Assembly (NCBI RefSeq): GCF_000968055.1
Contig: NC_022538.1
Location: 434,001-498,000 of the forward strand
DNA length: 64,000 nt
Source: Alteracholeplasma palmae J233
GTDB lineage: Bacteria; Bacillota_I; Bacilli_A; Acholeplasmatales; Acholeplasmataceae
Direction: 5' to 3'
The translations under genes and the position numbers were made by a program. Under the pieces are notes generated by a model. The model did no database searches and had not been told where the DNA came from. It saw nothing but the letters and a program-made list of their open reading frames with translations. Below, piece after piece: positions 13,765 to 29,497 of this stretch (position 1 is the stretch's first letter; each line of letters opens with the position of its first letter).

Positions 13765-14508
13765 ATGGAAAAAGGTTTATTAGAGTCAGAAAGACTGCAC
13801 TATAATGAATTAAGAGGAATGAGCGAAGACAGTAAGTGCGAACAAATAGAACACTCATTTTTAATACAGTTTATATTTGATATGATGAGCTTAGATGGAA
13901 AATGCAAATTAACTAAAGAAGAAATAGCACATCTTATCGATAAAAAAATTATTGTCTCAACCCTTAGTGAAAGAGAACAAAAAGAAGTATTAAATTTAGT
14001 TTCTGCTTACGAATTTATTAAAAAATTAACTATACAAAGACGTAGAATGAGTGAAGAACTTTTAAAAGATATTCATGAGATTTTGTTTGATGGCATTTTA
14101 CAAGGTGGTAGATATAGAAATGTTAATTTACAATTATCTAATTCTAGACACCAACCACCAGATTACGTTAAAGTTTATGATAGAATGAAAAAGTATTTCT
14201 TTGATTTAGAACGATTTAGAGGAACTACTGTAGAAAAAGCAGCATTTGCTCACGCTGGTTTATCAAAAATCCATCCTTTTATTGAAGGAAATCAAAGACT
14301 TGCCAGATTAATTATGAATTATTATTTATTATTTGATGGATATATTGCGTTAACAATAGAAGAAACAGAAAAAAATGAATATATGAAATCCATTGATACA
14401 TTTAAAGAAGAAAAAGACTTAGAAAGCCTAATTAGCTTTTTAATTAAAAAATTATTAGAAAGATATAATGATTTAATTGATGTATTAGAATCAACATATG
14501 AGGTGTGA
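13765..14508 (+). CDS. Fic-domain protein (putative AMP/NMP transferase)
   Basis: A 247-residue protein with a Fic fold. The catalytic loop is HPFIEGNQRLAR (about residues 172-183), matching HxFx(D/E)GN(G/K)R except that Gln replaces the second Gly. A RYRN segment and a flap-like stretch precede it. Fic enzymes transfer AMP or another nucleotide group to target proteins. I see no clear inhibitory (S/T)xxxE(G/N) helix and no adjacent antitoxin gene. It overlaps the ribosome binding site of cvfB, and only 1 nt separates its stop from the cvfB start, so the two are co-expressed. The target is unknown. Confidence 0.8.
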   Translation: MEKGLLESERLHYNELRGMSEDSKCEQIEHSFLIQFIFDMMSLDGKCKLTKEEIAHLIDKKIIVSTLSEREQKEVLNLVSAYEFIKKLTIQRRRMSEELLKDIHEILFDGILQGGRYRNVNLQLSNSRHQPPDYVKVYDRMKKYFFDLERFRGTTVEKAAFAHAGLSKIHPFIEGNQRLARLIMNYYLLFDGYIALTIEETEKNEYMKSIDTFKEEKDLESLISFLIKKLLERYNDLIDVLESTYEV

Positions 14509-16904: not shown

Positions 16905-16933
16905 TTGACAGTTAAATATCAGAAGAGTATAAT
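16905..16933 (+). promoter_or_regulatory. Promoter of the V-type ATPase operon
   Basis: Consensus TTGACA (16905-16910), a 17-bp spacer, then TATAAT (16928-16933). It is the only strong promoter I see for the ten genes to 26.4 kb; AATGGAGGTG follows as ribosome binding site. Confidence 0.85.
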
Positions 16934-16959: not shown

Positions 16960-17268
16960 ATGGAAAGTTTAATTAAAGAAGTAATTGAATTAGATAAAAA
17001 AGCAAGAAAAGAAATTGATAACTTAAAGAATCAAAAAGAAATGCTTGCTAATAGTATCAAAAAAGAAAAAGCTAAAATGGTTGAAGCCAACAATCAAAAA
17101 GTAATTCAAGAGTTAGAAGAAAAAGAAAAGAATTTACAATCAGAGTTCCAATTAGAAGAAAAGAAGCTAAAAGAATCATTTGAAACAACGACTAAGAATT
17201 TGGATCAACGTTTTGATGAAAACAAAGAACAATGGATTAATGAAATGTTTAAGTTAGCGATAGAGTAA
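16960..17268 (+). CDS. V-type ATPase subunit H/G (peripheral-stalk coiled coil)
   Basis: A 102-residue, highly charged, almost entirely coiled-coil protein (Lys/Glu-rich, heptad-like). Its size and first position in the operon fit the small stalk subunit (named G, H or F in different systems) that pairs with subunit E to link the membrane subunit I to the A/B head. There is no sequence motif beyond the coiled coil, so the call rests largely on length and context. It is separated from the next gene by 12 nt, with AGAGGTGATG as ribosome binding site. Confidence 0.75.
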   Translation: MESLIKEVIELDKKARKEIDNLKNQKEMLANSIKKEKAKMVEANNQKVIQELEEKEKNLQSEFQLEEKKLKESFETTTKNLDQRFDENKEQWINEMFKLAIE

Positions 17269-17280
17269 AGAGGTGATGAT

Positions 17281-18309
17281 ATGCTACTTGAAAATGCATT
17301 AGTCACTAAAGCTCGAGCAATCTACGGGAAACTGCTGAATGAAGATGATTTCACTCAACTAGTTAAAAAAAAATCAGTAGAAGAGGTTGCGTCGTATTTG
17401 CGTTCGCATCCTTTTTATTTGGAAGCTTTTAGTGGCGTCTCAGATCAAAATTTAAATAGAAAAAGATTAGAAGAAACAATCAAAAAATATCATTTTAGTC
17501 AAGTATTAAAACTGATTAGATATTCAGCTGCTAAATATAAAAGTTTTTATCAAATCGATGTCATTCATAAAGAACACGATATTATTTTATCAATGATCAA
17601 ATCCTTTATATCAGATGAATCTTATGATGTCATAAATGACTTACCTATTTTCTTTGATCAATATTCAAAATTAGACTTATTACAAATTTCTAAGTCAAAG
17701 AATCTAAGTGATTTAGTAGACTCTTTAAAAGAAACTAGTTACTATAAGTTATTGTTGCCATACAAAGAAATGGAAAATACTGAAATTAAATATAATCAAT
17801 TTGAGTCAGTTCTAGAACAAAAATATTTCGAGTTTGTTAATCATGAAGTTGAAAAAAACTTCAAAGGAAGCTTAAAAAAACAACTTAAAAATATTATGAA
17901 AACTAAAACAGACTTATCTACAGTAATTAAGATTTATCGTTTGAAAAAATATTATGAGTTTAATGATGATGAAATTAAAGCAGTCATTGTTAATAAATAT
18001 AATACAATCAATGAAAATAAATTAAACGCAATGCTTTCTTTTGAAAACCCTGATGATTTACTTAAAATATATAGTAAAGGCAAATATGATGGCAATCTAT
18101 CAAGTGCCAATCAATATATTGAAAACTATATGGATACAGTTAGTTATCAATTAGCAAAAAAAACTTTACTATATAGTAAAGAAGCACCTTTGGTTTATCT
18201 AGCATATCTTACGATTAGTAATACACAAATTGATAATTTAATTCATATTATAGAAGGCATTAGATATAATGTACCTGAAAATGAAATTAAAGAAATCATC
18301 ATTGTGTAG
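17281..18309 (+). CDS. ntpC: V-type ATPase subunit C (rotor d-like)
   Basis: A 342-residue all-helical protein without membrane segments, matching the V/A-ATPase subunit C/d family. That subunit sits as a funnel on top of the proteolipid ring and connects it to the central stalk D/F. The start ENALVTKARAIYGKLL and the repeated three-helix pattern (VEEVASYLRSHPFY; LRLKKYYEFNDDEIK) fit the family. It lies second in the operon, upstream of the I genes, whereas in E. hirae and Thermus it follows K and E. Confidence 0.85.
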   Translation: MLLENALVTKARAIYGKLLNEDDFTQLVKKKSVEEVASYLRSHPFYLEAFSGVSDQNLNRKRLEETIKKYHFSQVLKLIRYSAAKYKSFYQIDVIHKEHDIILSMIKSFISDESYDVINDLPIFFDQYSKLDLLQISKSKNLSDLVDSLKETSYYKLLLPYKEMENTEIKYNQFESVLEQKYFEFVNHEVEKNFKGSLKKQLKNIMKTKTDLSTVIKIYRLKKYYEFNDDEIKAVIVNKYNTINENKLNAMLSFENPDDLLKIYSKGKYDGNLSSANQYIENYMDTVSYQLAKKTLLYSKEAPLVYLAYLTISNTQIDNLIHIIEGIRYNVPENEIKEIIIV

Positions 18310-18319
18310 GTGAAAAAAT

Positions 18320-19291
18320 ATGTTTAGAAAAAACAAGTTATTAAATGTAACAATTTCTACTGAAAAAGAAAACTTAAGAGAATTGATTCAAATGATTCAA
18401 AGTGTTCCTAATTTTAAATTGATTGAATCAAAAGATATTATTGTTACTTCAAAAAACGCACAAGGCTTAAGAAAAAATGTCCAATTAACTAAAGAATACG
18501 AAAACCTTTTAAATTTTCTTCAATTACATGAAATCAAAACAAAAGAGAAAACAACTGGAAAATTTGATAAAGATTTAGAGAAAAATTTTGAAATCATTTC
18601 TAACTTTAAAAATAAATATGAAGCTTTTGATCAAGCAATAGAAAATATAAAAAGTGAAATGAATCGAATAGAAAAAAGAATTTCAATTCTAAAGAAATTA
18701 AAAACTTTAGATATATCATTAGAACAGATATTTGAATGTGAATTTCTTGTTGCAAGAATAGGAAAAATCACAAGTGAAAATAGAAAGAAAATTAAGTACT
18801 ATAGGAATCTCCCGTTTATTTTTGAAGTTTTAAGTGAAGAAAATAACGTATGTTGGTGCTTATATGCAACAAGTAATTACTATGAAAGACAAGTAGATAA
18901 TATTTTTTCAAGCTTACTATTTGAGCGCATTTATTTACCAGGCAAGATTCAAGAACTTCCTAAAAAGGCAATTACAATTTTAGAAAAAGAACTAGTGAAA
19001 AATGAAAAAGAAATTCTAAAAATTCGAAAAGAACAAAAAGTTTTTGTTAAACAAGAATTAGAAATTCTTTCTGAAACTAAAAACTTTTTAGAACAGGAAG
19101 AATCTTATAATAAAATATTTCCGTATATTATTGATTATGACAAAAGGGTTTCGGTTTCCGGATATATTGATGAAACTAAAGTCAATCAAATATATGATTT
19201 AGTAACTAATGATAAAATGAATATTTTAGCACTTCCAGCATTAAAAAAAGAAGTCAAAATATTGAAAAAAAAGTATAAGAATATAAAGTGA
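18320..19291 (+). CDS. Soluble paralog of V-ATPase subunit I N-terminal arm
   Basis: A 323-residue protein clearly homologous to the first 320 residues of the full subunit I encoded next: both share IKYYRN(L/K)PF, a WC(L/M)Y segment, DN(I/M)F...FERI.(L/I)P and an (S/F)SISGFI-type strand, in the same order and spacing. It stops before the membrane domain and has no transmembrane helix. It starts at ATG with AGGTGAAAA upstream, ends with a normal TGA, and is packed tightly between subunits C and I, so it is not a random truncation. In the enzyme, the I arm binds E/G peripheral stalks. An extra membrane-less arm could hold another stalk or regulate assembly; this is inference. Confidence 0.8.
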   Translation: MFRKNKLLNVTISTEKENLRELIQMIQSVPNFKLIESKDIIVTSKNAQGLRKNVQLTKEYENLLNFLQLHEIKTKEKTTGKFDKDLEKNFEIISNFKNKYEAFDQAIENIKSEMNRIEKRISILKKLKTLDISLEQIFECEFLVARIGKITSENRKKIKYYRNLPFIFEVLSEENNVCWCLYATSNYYERQVDNIFSSLLFERIYLPGKIQELPKKAITILEKELVKNEKEILKIRKEQKVFVKQELEILSETKNFLEQEESYNKIFPYIIDYDKRVSVSGYIDETKVNQIYDLVTNDKMNILALPALKKEVKILKKKYKNIK

Positions 19292-19306
19292 AGGGAAGTG
19301 TTTACC

Positions 19307-21220
19307 TTGGGAATTGCAAAAATGAAACTTGTTACAATCAGTTCAGAATTGACTAACTTAGAACAAGTTTTAAAAAGATTTATTGAATTTCCTGAGTTTC
19401 ATCCAATTTCATCTGAACAGTTTGTAGATAGAGTAAGAGGGCTAAAAACATTTAGTTCTTCAAATCCATTTAAATCATTACTAGATGAAATTATCGAAAT
19501 TGAGTCAGAATTTAATTTCAAATTACCAGTAGTTAAACAAGAAAATCTAGAATATAATATTGATCAAATGCATGATAATGTTGTTATAATTCATGAAAAA
19601 TTAAAACAAGAAATTTTAAGCATTAGAAAATTAGAAAGTGATATCAACCTTCATCAATTAGCAATTGATCAAATACACAATATAGATAACTTAAAAGTTT
19701 CATTGGATGACATATTCTCATGTAAATTTCTTTACGTAAGATTTGGTAGAATTCCAATGGATAGTCAAGAAAAAATTAAATATTATAGAAATAAACCTTT
19801 TGTATTTAAAGAGTTTAGCCAAATAGATGGCCACATCTGGTGTATGTATATGATGACCGAAGAATATAAACAAGAAATTGATAATATGTTCGCGACACTA
19901 TTTTTCGAAAGAATTAGAATACCTGAATTTGTTCATGGAACACCTGATAAAGCAGAAAAACAACTTCAAGAAAACTTAGCTAAGATGACTGAACAATTAA
20001 AGGTTTTAAAAGATCAACTTGATTATATGAAAAATTCATGTATGACTGAGTTATCAACAACTAAAGCAGAACTAGAATTCTTAGGAAAACTTTATGAAGC
20101 TAGAAAGTATGTTGTTGGGCTTGGTGAAAGATTTTCTATTTCCGGATTTATAGTTAAAAAAGACGCAGATAAATTTAAACAACACTTTGAAGGCATTAGC
20201 GACCTAGAAATTGAAGTTAGACCAGCAAATAGTGATAAGCGCATCACACCACCTACTAAATTATCTAATAACTGGTTTAGTAAGCCATTTGAAATGTTTG
20301 TTGAAATGTATGGAACTCCATCATATAAAGATATTGATCCTACCTTGTTTGTCTCTATAACATATACTTTATTATTTGGAATCATGTTTGGTGATGTGGG
20401 ACAAGGATTATTGATGTCCTTAATTGGTTTCTTACTATCTAAATATAAGAAACTTCCATTAGGTAAAATTATATCTAGAATTGGTATATCATCAGCAGTC
20501 TTTGGATTAGCTTATGGTTCATTTTTTGGAGATGAAAAACTATTACCTGGACTCTATGAGAAATATTTAGGTATACATCCTATTGAAGTAATGAATAGTA
20601 GTGTTACGATGAATCTACTGATTGCAACCGTTCTATTAGGAGCTGTATTGATTTTATCAGCAATTATTATGAATATATATGTTAAGTTTAAAAACAAAGA
20701 TTATATAGAGGGCACTATTTCTAATAATGGTATTATGGGGCTATTATTTTATGGTTTCATTTTAATAGGTATCGTTTTAAATATGCAAGCTAAAATCAAT
20801 TTATTTAACATATATACAATTCTTCTTTTAATAGGTATTCCTTTATTAGTGATATTCTTTAAAGAACCACTGGAAAGAAAGTTAAATAAAGAAAAGGCTT
20901 TTCCAAATGGTTTTGGAGGATTCTTTATTGAAGGATTCTTTGAATTATTTGAAGTTATGTTGTCATATGTTACAAATACAATGTCATTTTTAAGAGTTGG
21001 TGGATTTATTCTATCCCATGCTGGAATGATGCTTGTAGTACATACCTTAATGGAAATGACAGGCCAAGCAGGAATTGTTGTCTCTATTTTTGGTAATATA
21101 TTTGTTATGGGGCTTGAAGGACTAATAGTCGGAATTCAAGTATTAAGATTAGAATTTTATGAAATGTTTTCAAGATATTATGAAGGCGATGGAATTCCAT
21201 TTACGCCAATCAAATTTTAG
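19307..21220 (+). CDS. ntpI: V-type ATPase subunit I (membrane stator, a-type)
   Basis: A 637-residue stator subunit. The N-terminal half (1-320) is the cytoplasmic arm with two coiled-coil segments; the C-terminal half has seven or eight helices. Conserved signatures are PSYKDIDPT, GIMFGDVGQGL, MSFLRVGGFILSHAGM and VLRLEFYEMFSRYYEG; the last contains one of the Arg residues that exchange ions with the ring. The TTG at 19307 is preferred: it gives MGIAKMKLVTIS, aligned with family N-termini, and lies 8 nt after AGGGAAG. An upstream GTG at 19298 would overlap that site. It follows its soluble paralog. Confidence 0.95.
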   Translation: MGIAKMKLVTISSELTNLEQVLKRFIEFPEFHPISSEQFVDRVRGLKTFSSSNPFKSLLDEIIEIESEFNFKLPVVKQENLEYNIDQMHDNVVIIHEKLKQEILSIRKLESDINLHQLAIDQIHNIDNLKVSLDDIFSCKFLYVRFGRIPMDSQEKIKYYRNKPFVFKEFSQIDGHIWCMYMMTEEYKQEIDNMFATLFFERIRIPEFVHGTPDKAEKQLQENLAKMTEQLKVLKDQLDYMKNSCMTELSTTKAELEFLGKLYEARKYVVGLGERFSISGFIVKKDADKFKQHFEGISDLEIEVRPANSDKRITPPTKLSNNWFSKPFEMFVEMYGTPSYKDIDPTLFVSITYTLLFGIMFGDVGQGLLMSLIGFLLSKYKKLPLGKIISRIGISSAVFGLAYGSFFGDEKLLPGLYEKYLGIHPIEVMNSSVTMNLLIATVLLGAVLILSAIIMNIYVKFKNKDYIEGTISNNGIMGLLFYGFILIGIVLNMQAKINLFNIYTILLLIGIPLLVIFFKEPLERKLNKEKAFPNGFGGFFIEGFFELFEVMLSYVTNTMSFLRVGGFILSHAGMMLVVHTLMEMTGQAGIVVSIFGNIFVMGLEGLIVGIQVLRLEFYEMFSRYYEGDGIPFTPIKF

Positions 21221-21226
21221 GAGGAA

Positions 21227-21670
21227 ATGAAAATGTTAAAAGTTATGAGTGTTATTGTTCCAATATTAGTATTATTATTAATTGTATTACCTTTAGTAAA
21301 GGTATTTAAAGGTAAGGTGAGTGCTTTATCAGCTAAAAGAAGAATTATCTTACACGTTGTAATGTTCTTTACACTACTAGTAGGTGTAACAGTTGCAGCA
21401 CCAATCGCGTTTGCAGCTGGTGAAGAAGCAGCACAAGCAGCTTCAGACAGTGGAATGGCAAAGGGTTTAGGCTATTTAGCAGCAGCTATCGCAACAGGTC
21501 TATCAGCACTTGGAGCAGGGATTGCAGTTGCAGCCGCAGCTCCAGCAGCTATTGGTGCTATTTCAGAAAATCCAAAAAACTTTGGTAAATCATTGATCTT
21601 CGTTGCTCTTGGTGAAGGGGTAGCTATCTACGGTTTGTTAATCTCAATATTAATCTTAAACACACTATAA
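21227..21670 (+). CDS. ntpK: V-type ATPase subunit K (proteolipid ring)
   Basis: A 147-residue membrane protein with an N-terminal helix pair (about 6-28 and 40-63) followed by one proteolipid hairpin (about 78-111 and 121-145). The ion-binding carboxylate is Glu130 in ALGEGVAIYGLLI. The first hairpin carries no carboxylate, so each subunit brings one ion site, as in forms common in Clostridia. The residues next to Glu130 (Gly, Val) lack the Ser/Thr and Gln ligands of well-studied Na+ F-type rings, but V-type Na+ sites differ, so the coupling ion stays open. GGAGGAAATG precedes the start. Confidence 0.93.
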   Translation: MKMLKVMSVIVPILVLLLIVLPLVKVFKGKVSALSAKRRIILHVVMFFTLLVGVTVAAPIAFAAGEEAAQAASDSGMAKGLGYLAAAIATGLSALGAGIAVAAAAPAAIGAISENPKNFGKSLIFVALGEGVAIYGLLISILILNTL

Positions 21671-21688
21671 GAAAGAAGGTCTTTTCCA

Positions 21689-21997
21689 ATGAGATTTTAC
21701 TTATTAAGTGATAATGTGGATACTCTAGTAGGGATGAGACTTGTAGGCATTGAAGGAGTAGTCATTCATACTAAAGATGAAGTTTTAAAAAATTTAAACG
21801 AATTAACAAAGAATGACGAAATTGCTATTCTTTTAATCACAACAAAATTAATCAAACTATGCCCAGAAGTTATTTCAGAACTTAAACTTAGACAAACTAA
21901 GCCTCTAATTGTTGAAATACCTGATAGACATGGTGAAAGCAATATTGGTGAATCAATTAACCGATATGTAAGTGAAGCCATTGGCTTTAAGATATGA
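21689..21997 (+). CDS. V-type ATPase subunit F
   Basis: A 102-residue small soluble subunit of the central rotor stalk (called G in E. hirae naming). The family pattern is visible: an N-terminal FYLLSDNVDTLVGMRLVGIEG strand-helix, DEIAILLITTKLI, and RQTKPLIVEIPDRHGESNI near the end. It binds subunit D and modulates ATPase activity. It lies between K and E. Confidence 0.92.
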   Translation: MRFYLLSDNVDTLVGMRLVGIEGVVIHTKDEVLKNLNELTKNDEIAILLITTKLIKLCPEVISELKLRQTKPLIVEIPDRHGESNIGESINRYVSEAIGFKI

Positions 21998-22008
21998 GGT
22001 GAATTATT

Positions 22009-22584
22009 ATGGATTATTCAAACCAAGAAAATTTATATAAGTATTTTGATCAAACAATTAAGAATGAATCTTCTTTAATTATTCAAAAACTTAAAAAAGA
22101 ATTAAAAGAGATGAAAAATACTGCTTTAACAACAGTGAAGAATGAATTAGATGAAAGTAAAAAAATTACTATTGATGCTAAAGCAAAATTATTAACTTCA
22201 AAACATCAAAAAAGTCTAAGCGAGTTAAAGAAAAAGTATCATCTTGAATTAATGAGTAAAAGAGAACAATTACTAGAAGAACTAGTAGTATCACTTAAAA
22301 ACAAATTAAGTGACTATATGAAAACAGAAGCATATAAAAACAAAGTATTAGAAACGTTAAAAAATATTAAAGAAGAAATTAACTACATTGAAATTTCTCC
22401 TAAAGATCCTGTGAAAACAATTTTAAAAGATTATGAAATTAGAGAAAACAGTTCAATTACGGGTGGGATTTTAGTTGTATTAAAAACAAATAACTTAGAA
22501 GTTAACCAAACTTTTGATGTAAAAATCAAAGAAGCTAAAGAATGGTTCTACCAAAACTCTTTATTATTTGTAGTAGAAAAGTAG
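22009..22584 (+). CDS. ntpE: V-type ATPase subunit E (peripheral stalk)
   Basis: A 191-residue subunit with a long N-terminal coiled coil (about 15-95, Lys/Glu-rich) and a C-terminal globular domain, with the SITGGILVV segment typical of subunit E. It pairs with the small coiled-coil subunit (16960-17268) and anchors the catalytic head to the arm of subunit I. The start ATG follows TGAGGTGAATT. Confidence 0.88.
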   Translation: MDYSNQENLYKYFDQTIKNESSLIIQKLKKELKEMKNTALTTVKNELDESKKITIDAKAKLLTSKHQKSLSELKKKYHLELMSKREQLLEELVVSLKNKLSDYMKTEAYKNKVLETLKNIKEEINYIEISPKDPVKTILKDYEIRENSSITGGILVVLKTNNLEVNQTFDVKIKEAKEWFYQNSLLFVVEK

Positions 22585-22594
22585 AGGTGAAAGC

Positions 22595-24343
22595 ATGGCA
22601 AACACCGTATATTCAATAAACGGACCAGTTGTTAAAATTAAAGATACAAAAGATTTTTCTATGTTAGAAATGGTCTATGTAGGAAAAGAAAAATTGATGG
22701 GTGAAGTTATTTCTATTTCAAAAAATTTAACAACTATTCAAGTATATGAAAGTACTGCAGGGTTAAAAGTAAATGATGAAGTAGTTGGTACTAAAATGCC
22801 TGTTTCAGTTAGTTTAGCACCTGGAATCTTAACTCATATCTTTGATGGGATAGAAAGACCTTTAGAAACAATTGCACTGACACATGGTGCCTATATGTCA
22901 AAAGGTAGTGATGTAGAACAACTTAATAGTGAAAAACAATGGGATATTACTTTTAAAGTTAAAAAAGGTGATGAAGTCTTTGGAGGAATGATTTATGCTA
23001 CAACTCCAGAAACTAGTTTAATTGAACATCGCTTTTTAATTCCAAGTCATATAAAAGGAACTGTTATAGAAGTTCTAGAAAATGGTAACCATACTATTAA
23101 TGAAGTAGCTTTAAAAGTAGAATTAGAAGATAAAACAATCAAAGAAGTAACCTTCTTACAAAAATGGCCAATTAAAACACCAAGACCTATTTTAGAAAGA
23201 TTACCAATTTCTGTTCCACTTATTACTGGACAAAGAGTTATTGATACACTATTTCCTATTGCTAAAGGCGGTACAGCTGCTCTTCCTGGCGGATTTGGTA
23301 CAGGTAAAACAATGATGCAACACCAATTAGCTAAATGGTGTGATGCAGATATTATCGTTTATATTGGTTGTGGGGAACGCGGTAATGAAATGACTCAAGT
23401 TCTAGAAGAATTTAGAGAATTAATTGACCCTAAAACTCACAAATCATTAATGGAAAGAACAGTATTAATCGCTAATACTTCTAACATGCCGGTTGCTGCT
23501 CGTGAAGCAAGTATCTACACAGGATTAACAATTGCTGAATACTATAGAGATATGGGATACCATGTAGCTGTTATGGCTGACTCAACCTCACGTTGGGCAG
23601 AAGCACTAAGAGAAATCAGTGGTAGATTAGAAGAAATGCCTGCTGAAGAAGGATTCCCAGCATACTTACCAAGTCGTATCTCTCAATTTTATGAAAGAGC
23701 TGGACTTGTAACAACCCTTAATCAAAAAGAAGGATCAGTTTCTATTATTGGAGCTGTTTCTCCTCAAGGATCTGACTTTTCAGAACCAGTAACTCAAAAT
23801 ACCAAACGCTTTGTAAGATGTTTCTGGGCACTTGATAAACAATTAGCATATGAAAGACACTATGCAGCAGTCAACTGGAATTTAAGTTATTCTGAATATA
23901 TGCTTGATTTAGCACCATGGTATAATGAGTTTGTTTCTCCTCAATTTTTAGAAGATAGAAAACAAATGATGGCAATTTTAGCAGAAGAAAATAAACTATT
24001 AGAAATTGTTAAATTAATTGGTTCAGATGTTTTACCAGATGATCAAAAATTAATTATTGAAATTGGTAAAGTGATTAGATTAGGTTATCTTCAACAAAAT
24101 GCTTTTCATAAAGAAGATACTTATGTACCATTAGAAAAACAATTAAAAATGATGAATGTGATATTGTATTTATATAAAGAAGCTAAGAAATTCATTCAAA
24201 GTGATAAAGCTTTAAGTTTACTTTTGAAAACAGGAATTTTTGAACAACTTGTTAAAATAAAATATGATGTTGAAAATAATAAATTAGAAAAATTAGATGA
24301 ATACTATAATTTAATAGATAAAAGTATTCAAACTATTCGATAG
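22595..24343 (+). CDS. ntpA: V-type ATPase catalytic subunit A
   Basis: A 582-residue catalytic subunit. Walker A is GGFGTGKTMMQH (about 232-243), followed by GCGERGNEMTQVL with the catalytic Glu and the MADSTSRWAEALRE motif. The 'non-homologous' bulge domain that distinguishes A from F-type beta is present between the barrel and the P-loop (about 115-185). All catalytic residues are intact. Three copies alternate with subunit B in the head. In a fermentative cell it would most likely hydrolyse ATP to energise the membrane, but synthesis cannot be excluded. Confidence 0.97.
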   Translation: MANTVYSINGPVVKIKDTKDFSMLEMVYVGKEKLMGEVISISKNLTTIQVYESTAGLKVNDEVVGTKMPVSVSLAPGILTHIFDGIERPLETIALTHGAYMSKGSDVEQLNSEKQWDITFKVKKGDEVFGGMIYATTPETSLIEHRFLIPSHIKGTVIEVLENGNHTINEVALKVELEDKTIKEVTFLQKWPIKTPRPILERLPISVPLITGQRVIDTLFPIAKGGTAALPGGFGTGKTMMQHQLAKWCDADIIVYIGCGERGNEMTQVLEEFRELIDPKTHKSLMERTVLIANTSNMPVAAREASIYTGLTIAEYYRDMGYHVAVMADSTSRWAEALREISGRLEEMPAEEGFPAYLPSRISQFYERAGLVTTLNQKEGSVSIIGAVSPQGSDFSEPVTQNTKRFVRCFWALDKQLAYERHYAAVNWNLSYSEYMLDLAPWYNEFVSPQFLEDRKQMMAILAEENKLLEIVKLIGSDVLPDDQKLIIEIGKVIRLGYLQQNAFHKEDTYVPLEKQLKMMNVILYLYKEAKKFIQSDKALSLLLKTGIFEQLVKIKYDVENNKLEKLDEYYNLIDKSIQTIR

Positions 24344-24352
24344 GAGGAAACC

Positions 24353-25801
24353 ATGAAATATCAATATATTGGATTAGATGAAATTAATGGACCACTTATC
24401 TTCTTAGAAAATGTAAAAGATGCTTCATTTGAAGAAGTTGTTACAATTGAACTTAAAAATGGAGAAACTAAAAAAGGTAGAGTTATTCAAATAGACGGCA
24501 ATAAAGTAGCTATCCAAGTATTTGAAGGAACTACAGGAATGTCATTGACTGAAACCAAAACAACTTTTACTGGTGAACCAATGAAAATATCTTTATCAAA
24601 AGAAATTTTAGGTAGAGTATTTAATGGTTCGGGTGAACCATTAGATGGTTTAGGTAATGTATTCTCTGAAAAAAGATTCGATATTAATGGTAGTGCATTA
24701 AACCCAGTTTCAAGAGTTTATCCACGTAACTATATCCATACTGGAATTAGTAGTATTGACACTCTAACTACTTTAATTAGAGGACAAAAATTACCCATAT
24801 TTTCAGGTTCAGGACTAAGCCATAATGAACTTGCGGTTCAAATTGTTAAACAAGCTAAACTATCAGATGATTCAAATGAAGAATTTTGTATTGTGTTTGC
24901 CGCAATGGGAGTTAAGCATGACGTGGCTAACTATTTTAGACAAGCTTTTGAAGAAGCTAACGTTATGTCTAAGGTTGTTATGTATGTTAACGTTGCAAAT
25001 GATCCTATTATTGAAAGAATTTTAACCCCAAGAGCTGCATTAACAGCTGCAGAATATTTAGCATATGAAAAAGATATGCATGTTTTAGTTATATTAACAG
25101 ATATGACTGCTTACTGTGAAGCTTTAAGAGAATTTTCAAGTTCTAAAGGTGAAATTCCAGGACGTAAAGGTTATCCAGGATATTTGTATTCTGACCTTTC
25201 TTCATTATATGAAAGAGCTGGTATTATTAAACAGGCTAAAGGTTCAGTAACACAAATTCCAATATTAACTATGCCAAATGATGATATCACTCACCCAGTA
25301 CCAGATTTAACTGGATATATCACAGAAGGGCAAATTGTATTAAGCAAAGAATTACACCAAATGGGAATTTACCCACCGGTCAATATATTACCTTCATTAT
25401 CACGTTTAATGAAAGATGGTATTGGTGCGAAATATACTAGAGCAGACCATCAAGACTTAGCTAATCAATTGTTTGCTTCATACGCTAGAGTATTAGAAGC
25501 TAAATCATTAGCATCTGTTATTGGTGAAGATGAGTTAAACGATATTGATAGAGCTTATTTATTATATGGTAAATATTTTGATGAATATTTCTTATCTCAA
25601 GGAAATGAAAACAGAACAATGGAAGAAACCCTTAACTTAGGATGGGATTTATTATCTGTTCTACCAGTAAGTGAACTTAATAGATTAGATCAAAAAGTAA
25701 TTAATCAATTTTATAATCCTGAAAGTGCCCAAAAACGTTTTAAAATAACTCATAACGATATTGCAAGTTCAATTATTAATAAAGGAAATAATAATGAATA
25801 G
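24353..25801 (+). CDS. ntpB: V-type ATPase subunit B
   Basis: A 482-residue non-catalytic nucleotide-binding subunit. The P-loop position reads PIFSGSGLSHNELA, the degenerate form expected in B, followed by LTDMTAYCEALREFS, GRKGYPGYLYSDLSS and PVNILPSLSRLM. The length is slightly above the common 460. It ends 8 nt inside the start of subunit D (coupled translation). Confidence 0.97.
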   Translation: MKYQYIGLDEINGPLIFLENVKDASFEEVVTIELKNGETKKGRVIQIDGNKVAIQVFEGTTGMSLTETKTTFTGEPMKISLSKEILGRVFNGSGEPLDGLGNVFSEKRFDINGSALNPVSRVYPRNYIHTGISSIDTLTTLIRGQKLPIFSGSGLSHNELAVQIVKQAKLSDDSNEEFCIVFAAMGVKHDVANYFRQAFEEANVMSKVVMYVNVANDPIIERILTPRAALTAAEYLAYEKDMHVLVILTDMTAYCEALREFSSSKGEIPGRKGYPGYLYSDLSSLYERAGIIKQAKGSVTQIPILTMPNDDITHPVPDLTGYITEGQIVLSKELHQMGIYPPVNILPSLSRLMKDGIGAKYTRADHQDLANQLFASYARVLEAKSLASVIGEDELNDIDRAYLLYGKYFDEYFLSQGNENRTMEETLNLGWDLLSVLPVSELNRLDQKVINQFYNPESAQKRFKITHNDIASSIINKGNNNE

Positions 25802-26399
25802 TCAAATTATTCCTACTAAAGGTAATTTGCTTAATATAAAGAAAAGTTATCAGTTAGCGAAACTTGGGCAAGATTTAATGGAACGTAAAAAAAATATTTT
25901 AATGCGTGAAATGATGAGTTTATTAGATGATGTTGCAAAAATAAGAGATGAAATTTCTGAAACATATAAAAGAGCATATAGACTTTTACAAGATGCAAAT
26001 ATCACACTAGGAATTGTTGGAGATATTGCTAAAGCTGTCCCAATTGATAATGGATTAGAAGTAAGCTATATGAGTGTTATGGGTGTTGATATACCTAAAA
26101 TTCATCATGAAAAACCACAAATTAAATTAAGTTATGGACTCAGTGCTACAAATAGTAAATTTGATCAGGCTTTTAAAGCATTTCAAGATGTAAAAGTTTT
26201 AACAATTAAACTAGCAGAAATAGATAATAGTGCATATAGATTAGCAAATGGGATTAGAAAATCTCAAAAAAGAGCCAATGCATTAAAAAATATTGTCATG
26301 CCAGATTTAGAATATAAAGTTAAATTTATCGGAAATGTTTTAGAAGAAAGAGAAAGAGAAGAATTTTCTCGAATGAAAGTTATTAAAAATAGAAAATAG
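25794..26399 (+). CDS. ntpD: V-type ATPase subunit D (central stalk)
   Basis: A 201-residue rotor shaft. It starts MNSQIIPTKGNLLNIKKSYQLAKLGQDLMERKK, the family N-terminal helix, and ends with a long C-terminal helix (GIRKSQKRANALKNIVMPDLEYKVKFI). The ATG at 25794 overlaps the end of subunit B (stop at 25799-25801), and AAAGGA at 25781-25786 serves as ribosome binding site. A longer frame upstream of this ATG lies inside B and is not used. It is the last gene of the operon. Confidence 0.95.
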   Translation: MNSQIIPTKGNLLNIKKSYQLAKLGQDLMERKKNILMREMMSLLDDVAKIRDEISETYKRAYRLLQDANITLGIVGDIAKAVPIDNGLEVSYMSVMGVDIPKIHHEKPQIKLSYGLSATNSKFDQAFKAFQDVKVLTIKLAEIDNSAYRLANGIRKSQKRANALKNIVMPDLEYKVKFIGNVLEEREREEFSRMKVIKNRK

Positions 26400-26422
26400 A
26401 GGATATTTTTATCCTCTTTTTT
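26399..26422 (+). terminator. Terminator of the V-ATPase operon
   Basis: GAGGAT/ATCCTC with an ATTTTT loop and a T6 tail, starting at the stop codon of subunit D. Confidence 0.85.
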
Positions 26423-28110: not shown

Positions 28111-29002
28111 TTAAACTAATGATAAGGATTGTTGTCTATATTGATATGGACTCAATCCTTTTAATTTTGTTGTAATTCTTTCTAAATTGTAATACCTTAT
28201 ATATTCTTCTATAGCCACTGTTAATTCATCTAATGTTTTAAATTCATATTCATGCCCATAAAACATCTCATTTTTTAGAATTCCAAAGAAATTTTCTACA
28301 ATTGAATTATCTAAGCAGTTTCCTTTTCTAGACATACTTTGAATAATGCCTTTTTCAGATAATGATTTTCGATATTGAATCATTTGATATTGCCAGCCTT
28401 GATCTGAATGGAATATTAATCCATTTAAATTAGAATGCTTTTCAAATGCTTTATCTAACATATCTTCTATTTGAGTATAATTAGGAACTTTAGATATGTT
28501 ATATGATATAACTTCTCTATTATTAAAATCAATGATTGGCGATAAATATAGTTTTCCTGATGCTATATGAAATTCTGATACATCTGTTCCCCAAACATGA
28601 TTTAACCCCTGTGTAGTAAAGTCTCTTTCATAATAGGTGGTATGTTTTTCTGTATCAATTTTTTTCACTAATAAATGATTTTTAGCTGTCTTACTAAGTT
28701 CACCTTTATATGACTTATATTTAGCTTTTGGTTTTTAGCAAATAAACCAAGTTCTTTCATAATACGCTTAACTTTTTTATGATTTACTAGAATATTTTCA
28801 TTTTTTAAAGATAATGTGATTCTTCTATAGCCATATCTTGATTTATGATAATTGAAAATTTCTGTTATTTTATTTTCTAAATCGACATCTTTTTTTGGAA
28901 AATTATAGTTCTTTACGTTATAAAAGTAAGTTGACTTACTGATACAAAAAAACTCTAGCATCATCTTTAGTTCATACTTAGACCTTGATTCGTGTATGAT
29001 TT
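28111..29002 (-). pseudogene. IS transposase OrfB (DDE), frameshifted
   Basis: The catalytic half of an IS150-type transposase. In the -1 frame after orfA it runs KIIHESRSKYELKMMLEFF, then the HTH_21 region (HKSRYGYRRITLSL). Near 28726-28736 a T4GGT5 tract has lost (or gained) one base: the frame stops after 28668, and the rest continues in another frame with GTDVSEF, HSDQGW and NSIVENF, i.e. the DD(35)E triad with 35 residues between the second Asp and the Glu. The two pieces overlap by one base at 28668. Removing the indel would restore a full-length product. Either this is a dead copy or the A/T homopolymer is mis-sequenced. Confidence 0.85.
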
Positions 29003-29497
29003 TTATTTTTTGTTTTCTCGTTGAACCAAGGCTTTTAATTTTTTTAAGAGATCATTTTCCATTTCAAGACGTTTATTTTTAGCTTCTAATTCCCTAATGA
29101 TTTCATCTTTAGTTTGTTCTTTAATCTCTAAATTAGATTTTGGCTTATCCTTCATTGGTCTACCTCTTTGTTTTGTGATAAGTCCATTATATCCTAATTG
29201 ATCGTATCTTTTACACCATGAGTAAATCAAACCTACATTAGCTCCTATTTTTGTGGCTATAGATGATTTAGATTTACCTTCTAATATTCTTAGAACTATT
29301 TTATATTTAAATTCTTGTGAATACTCTCTATTCTTACCTTTTTCTTTAAAGTAATAAGAACCATGCATTCTATGAATTCTTAATATTGTATCAATAGTCG
29401 CACGATTAACGTTATAGTTTAATGCAATTTGCTTTATAGTAATACCTTTTTCAACCATCTGAATAATATTCAATTTATCTTCTAAGTTTAATTTCAT
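29003..29497 (-). CDS. IS transposase OrfA (helix-turn-helix)
   Basis: A 164-residue IS150-type OrfA with two helix-turn-helix units (EKGITIKQIALNYNVNRATI and KSKSSIATKIGANVGLIYSW) that bind the inverted repeats, and a C-terminal coiled coil (ELEAKNKRLEMENDLLKKLKAL) for multimerisation. It ends in a run of six As (29006-29011) just before TAA. Slipping back one base there enters the OrfB frame, the normal IS3 way to make the OrfAB transposase. Confidence 0.9.
   Translation of the reverse strand: MKLNLEDKLNIIQMVEKGITIKQIALNYNVNRATIDTILRIHRMHGSYYFKEKGKNREYSQEFKYKIVLRILEGKSKSSIATKIGANVGLIYSWCKRYDQLGYNGLITKQRGRPMKDKPKSNLEIKEQTKDEIIRELEAKNKRLEMENDLLKKLKALVQRENKK

Follow-up and report, generated by a model that had tools for sequence, protein, structure and literature searches.

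Why does a bacterial V/A-ATPase operon encode the cytoplasmic arm of its stator subunit I a second time? In known bacterial and archaeal V/A-ATPases, two peripheral stalks are held by a single a/I subunit, whereas eukaryotic enzymes have three stalks, the third held by subunit C, for which, according to a review, A- and F-type enzymes have no homologue (PMC6131620). The window, the whole 64,000-nucleotide stretch of Alteracholeplasma palmae DNA analyzed here, contains an H+-type V/A-ATPase operon in the order G-C-short arm-I-K-F-E-A-B-D, from 16960 to 26399 (Table 1).

The short gene and its operon

The short-arm gene is co-directional with the operon and occupies the slot between the genes for subunits C and I. 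By BLASTP, its product and the arm encoded by the next gene are 31% identical and collinear over 298 aa (E 1e-32); it matches the first 300 residues of I, with the blocks in the same order. We found no membrane-like segment in the short arm, whose highest 19-residue hydropathy is 0.85 versus 2.87 in full I. The protein ends at residue 323, so that the C-terminal membrane domain with its conserved arginine is absent. Thus, both the whole-length similarity to the cytoplasmic half of I and the clean end ahead of the membrane domain, as originally predicted, were borne out. The last 24 residues are very basic, with a net charge of +7. A Pfam search at E up to 1 gave no PF01496 match in the short arm, and NCBIfam NF004428 matched weakly (E 2e-10; 39.5 bits versus a cut-off of 766). 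The standard Pfam model misses such genes.

The gene was also predicted to be intact, within the operon, and 6 to 10 nt from its neighbors. The reading frame is open from ATG to TGA; the chance of 323 open codons in a composition-matched random frame is 6e-14. Codon usage in 18320 to 19291 fits the annotated frame only, and a Shine-Dalgarno-like AGGTGA precedes the ATG. These results agree with an intact gene inside the operon. For the spacing, the 10 nt to C stood, but the 6 nt to I holds only if I starts at GTG 19298. The I N termini of relatives (M-x-I-A-K) favor TTG 19307, which makes the gap 15 nt.

Table 1. Features of the H+-type V/A-ATPase operon in the window
Feature	Position	Strand	Basis
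Promoter-like site TTGACA-17-TATAAT, upstream of the operon	16905..16933	+	consensus match 12/12
Subunit G (NtpF/AhaH-like small stalk coiled coil), 102 aa	16960..17268	+	place in operon, coiled coil, G gene kept in related operons
Subunit C (AC39-type), 342 aa	17281..18309	+	Pfam PF01992, E 5e-49
Short arm, membrane-less paralogue of subunit I cytoplasmic arm, 323 aa	18320..19291	+	BLASTP, fold prediction
Distal-lobe coding region of short arm, residues 130-213	18707..18958	+	42% identity to I; AF2 strand/helix pattern 143-198
Full subunit I, 637 aa from TTG (640 aa if GTG 19298)	19307..21220	+	Pfam PF01496, E 3e-30
Subunit K (c ring), 147 aa, extra N-terminal hydrophobic hairpin	21227..21670	+	PF00137, E 3e-17
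Subunit F	21689..21997	+	PF01990, E 2e-22
Subunit E (peripheral stalk), single copy	22009..22584	+	weak PF01991/NF002629, position
Catalytic subunit A	22595..24343	+	homologues in related operons
Subunit B	24353..25801	+	homologues in related operons
Subunit D (rotor)	25791..26399	+	PF01813, E 9e-48
Terminator-like hairpin with T tail, closing the operon	26398..26417	+	

A scan from G to I found no terminator-like sites in that stretch. Despite the full-consensus site ahead of G, promoter-like sites around the operon were no commoner than in shuffled sequence. In subunit K, the hairpin spans ~70 residues and precedes the usual two-helix c-ring domain; K of 140 to 153 aa occurs in nearly all related operons. 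Downstream of the operon lies an IS3-like transposase in several reading frames (28111-29497, minus strand). A second, Na+-type V-ATPase operon of A. palmae (~1.269 Mb) has a 255-aa ORF in its subunit C slot (L241:6743-7510, minus strand), and we found no AC39 Pfam match in that ORF. According to PMC4221730, too, A. palmae lacks this subunit.

To model the short arm, we used AF2 with 13 extra-arm sequences. The model (pLDDT 86) is a complete two-lobed I arm, as the original prediction would require, and runs from strand-helix through a coil (86-125), the distal lobe (143-198), and a second coil (214-264) to the proximal lobe (270-318). Its best solved matches in Foldseek were Thermus subunit I (6r0z_N, E 5e-12) and the Meiothermus I arm (3rrk, 9e-12), and VIA gave Z 16.3 over 306 residues. 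The model also matched yeast subunit C (Vma5p, 1u7l; Foldseek E 3e-9, VIA Z 9.2). However, a control model of the ordinary A. palmae I arm, built at equal alignment depth, matched Vma5p as well (Foldseek E 5e-9). The likeness to subunit C is therefore a property of the I-arm fold in general, and we rejected a special likeness of the short arm. PDB searches with sequence profiles A2 and A3 returned no subunit C chain, but no subunit I chain either. The short-arm model resembles Vma5p as a membrane-less dumbbell of two lobes and a coiled coil, a resemblance that the ordinary I arm has to an equal degree; this is a likeness of fold class, not identity, with no sequence relation detectable by profiles that also missed the I chains.

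Compared with subunit I/a (NtpI, AtpI, Vph1; PF01496), the short arm has the whole cytoplasmic arm fold. In contrast to I/a, it lacks the membrane domain and with it the half channels and the essential arginine, and it is an additional copy rather than the sole one. Eukaryotic subunit a isoforms are likewise paralogues of the same stator subunit, but they are full-length with a motor domain and replace one another in separate complexes. Our literature search found no prior description of such a membrane-less extra I arm. The paper describing the A. oculi genome covers both these ATPases and A. palmae, and excerpts of it contain no mention of the extra arm.

Extra arms in other Bacilli

We looked for an I-like gene of this size in other genomes. 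Among 88 Acholeplasmataceae genomes, 35 had an I of this type, and most had no short arm. Besides A. palmae, three genomes carried one (326 to 335 aa); they belong to a single genus (g3), and each has the gene between G and C. In the operon nearest to that of A. palmae (genome G004), I is ~70% identical and follows C directly, with the short arm absent. This absence, together with that in most of the family, indicates that the short arm is dispensable for the core enzyme. A congener (G001) gave no subunit I match and a marginal subunit A match of 51 residues. In genome G079, the 137-nt gap between G and C held no visible relic of a short arm.

In a class-level sample of 395 genomes, we found extra arms in two more groups, making three further groups in all. 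In Izemoplasmatales (family f24), short arms of 320 to 341 aa lie between C and I in 5 of the 15 genomes having I, and four further named contigs have them too. In Coprobacillaceae/Erysipelotrichia (family f17), which include Kandleria vitulina (L206) and Eggerthia catenaformis (L211), 15/16 genomes encode a second I-like protein. This protein is an extra I paralogue directly ahead of I that has lost the motor part, as in A. palmae. Unlike the A. palmae short arm, it is 435 to 509 aa long and keeps several membrane-like segments after the arm, ending before the last ones of I. The slot between C and I is thus shared by Izemoplasmatales and Coprobacillaceae, in the latter with part of the membrane domain; soluble extra arms occur in A. 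palmae, Izemoplasmatales, and g3. The gene is in the ATPase operon in nearly all carriers except three f17 genomes (G171, G324, and G430), which have it on another contig. Searching a phylum-level sample with a profile of these arms revealed no carriers beyond these groups, although very divergent arms could escape such a search.

The original prediction had named lack of conservation in relatives as an argument against it; instead, genes of the predicted size recur in g3 and Izemoplasmatales, and longer versions recur in f17. Because the same arrangement exists in other families, we rejected a recent local duplication in A. palmae as the sole case. The motif VHGTP, conserved in most other extra arms, is lost in the A. 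palmae copy.

Two minor points concern Izemoplasmatales. In 7/9 short arms (L159, L160, L162, L164, L165, L167, and L168), we observed a basic tail that has a cysteine among its final seven positions. In another genome of the family (L144, G467; ~6.8-9.2 kb), stops and gaps interrupt the C and I genes of the operon, which are either misassembled or pseudogenes.

Origin and constraint

Trees were built on the arm region of I and the extra arms. The f17 extras formed a single clade adjacent to the f17 I subunits (100/100), and the f17 second subunit has one ancient origin in the family. Those of g3 also made up a single clade, next to the I of that genus. The f24 extras fell at two places, each adjoining the I of its own subgroup. 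Forcing all extras together cost 220 log-likelihood units, and we rejected a single origin (AU p 9e-62). Separate duplications therefore ended at the same boundary, or conversion keeps the copies alike: the trees are consistent with repeated duplication of I or, in part, with a single duplication followed by gene conversion between neighbors. The basic tail with cysteine is present in both f24 clusters; this shared C terminus hints that conversion may have followed one duplication within f24.

The A. palmae copy sits on a very long branch (3.0 to 5.6 changes per site). Neither a single origin with the three g3 copies (p 0.086) nor descent from its own I lineage (p 0.151) was rejected. Its grouping with G006/G019 was probably long-branch attraction, as its position moved once these were left out.

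In close f17 pairs, the extra arm gave dN/dS of 0.03/0.32, 0.04/0.47, 0.06/0.80, and 0.13/0.76, or about 0.09, 0.09, 0.08, and 0.17. These values (about 0.08 to 0.17) show purifying selection. For the f24 and g3 arms, dS was saturated or near it, and dN was 0.18 to 0.41. Extra arms mostly evolve faster than I yet are constrained. In A. palmae, the distal lobe has an identity to I of 0.42 versus an I-to-I baseline of 0.40 ± 0.03, so we rejected enhanced conservation there, and in the membrane-side part of the proximal lobe identity is lower than the baseline (0.18 versus 0.32 ± 0.04), a sign of relaxation. Thus, the suggestion that the gene looks selected holds directly for its f17 relatives; for A. 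palmae the indication is indirect and comes from the open frame, the codon usage, and a distal-lobe profile at the I level.

A possible accessory stator arm and its alternatives

We give roughly even chances to the reading that the short arm is an accessory stator arm, anchoring an additional or reinforced E-G peripheral stalk as subunit C does in eukaryotes. In the related eukaryotic a subunit, each arm end touches one E-G stalk (PMC10313074). With its stalk-contacting lobe intact and no motor, the second arm is most readily interpreted as an additional anchor of the stator. According to this model, the subunit I gene was duplicated and would have lost the whole membrane domain while keeping both lobes and the coiled coil. 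The product would join the collar of the same H+-type enzyme and so be present in the assembled complex. Its conserved distal lobe would bind an additional E-G heterodimer at its end or clamp an existing one, and the coiled coil and relaxed proximal lobe would rest against the I arm or another stalk, not entering the membrane. The stator would gain an anchor point and possibly a third E-G stalk; by analogy, the short arm would hold an extra stalk as eukaryotic subunit C does. Since the operon has single E and G genes, a third stalk would have to be built from these subunits at 3:3 stoichiometry. The short arm might bring in a third E-G, strengthen the grip on an existing one, or have a role in assembly or regulation; the sequences are compatible with each.

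An alternative, which we regard as unlikely, is that the soluble protein regulates the enzyme by binding the E-G of detached V1 or by competing with I, controlling assembly, disassembly, or idle ATP hydrolysis. Bacterial enzymes are not known to disassemble reversibly, which counts against this. The f17 proteins, with their several membrane-like segments, are probably no soluble V1 caps, and this argues that their original role was on the membrane-bound enzyme and not on free V1. Consistent with regulation are the soluble forms in three of the groups and the release of subunit C during reversible disassembly in eukaryotes (PMC8138766).

It is less likely still that the extra arm acts only transiently in assembly, stabilizing E-G or C before I enters the membrane. 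The gene does lie ahead of I, and the unlinked f17 copies work from another locus. However, the whole arm architecture is retained, with both lobes, and we saw no relation to known V-ATPase assembly factors.

Even if copies elsewhere are functional, the A. palmae copy could be a decaying duplicate; the long branch, the lost VHGTP motif, and the absence of the gene in the nearest relative with this operon all fit. We nonetheless consider this improbable, as the frame is open with coding codon usage, the ATG has its Shine-Dalgarno-like sequence, and the distal lobe is as conserved as expected for a functional I at equal divergence. That the arm left the ATPase to serve another complex and is merely co-transcribed would suit the three unlinked copies, but the gene lies in the operon in almost every other carrier, and the lobe that contacts the stalks shows I-like conservation, which makes this very improbable. 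Finally, readthrough of the TGA, which shares a frame with the I start, into one two-armed subunit of 966 residues is hardly credible, because the F and Fic genes in the window also end in TGA and this is thus an ordinary stop, because most extra arms elsewhere have TAA or TAG as their stop, and because in g3 subunit C sits between the arm and I.

Returning to the accessory stator arm, we tentatively suggest, at somewhat less than even chances, that several bacterial lineages independently made a third or reinforced stalk from motor-less I-arm copies, in parallel to the origin of subunit C. The recurrence suggests pumps braced by one stator arm beyond the textbook bacterial enzyme. A recurrent, selected, motor-less I arm would be a natural experiment on how stators gain anchors, and K. 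vitulina and A. palmae are organisms suited to measuring E:G:I stoichiometry.

The Fic-family protein noted above (13765-14508; PF02661, E 2.5e-19) is encoded two genes upstream of proS, and its motif reads HPFIEGNQR, with Gln in place of the usual Gly. The gene neighborhood Fic-YitL-proS-V-ATPase is kept in several genera.
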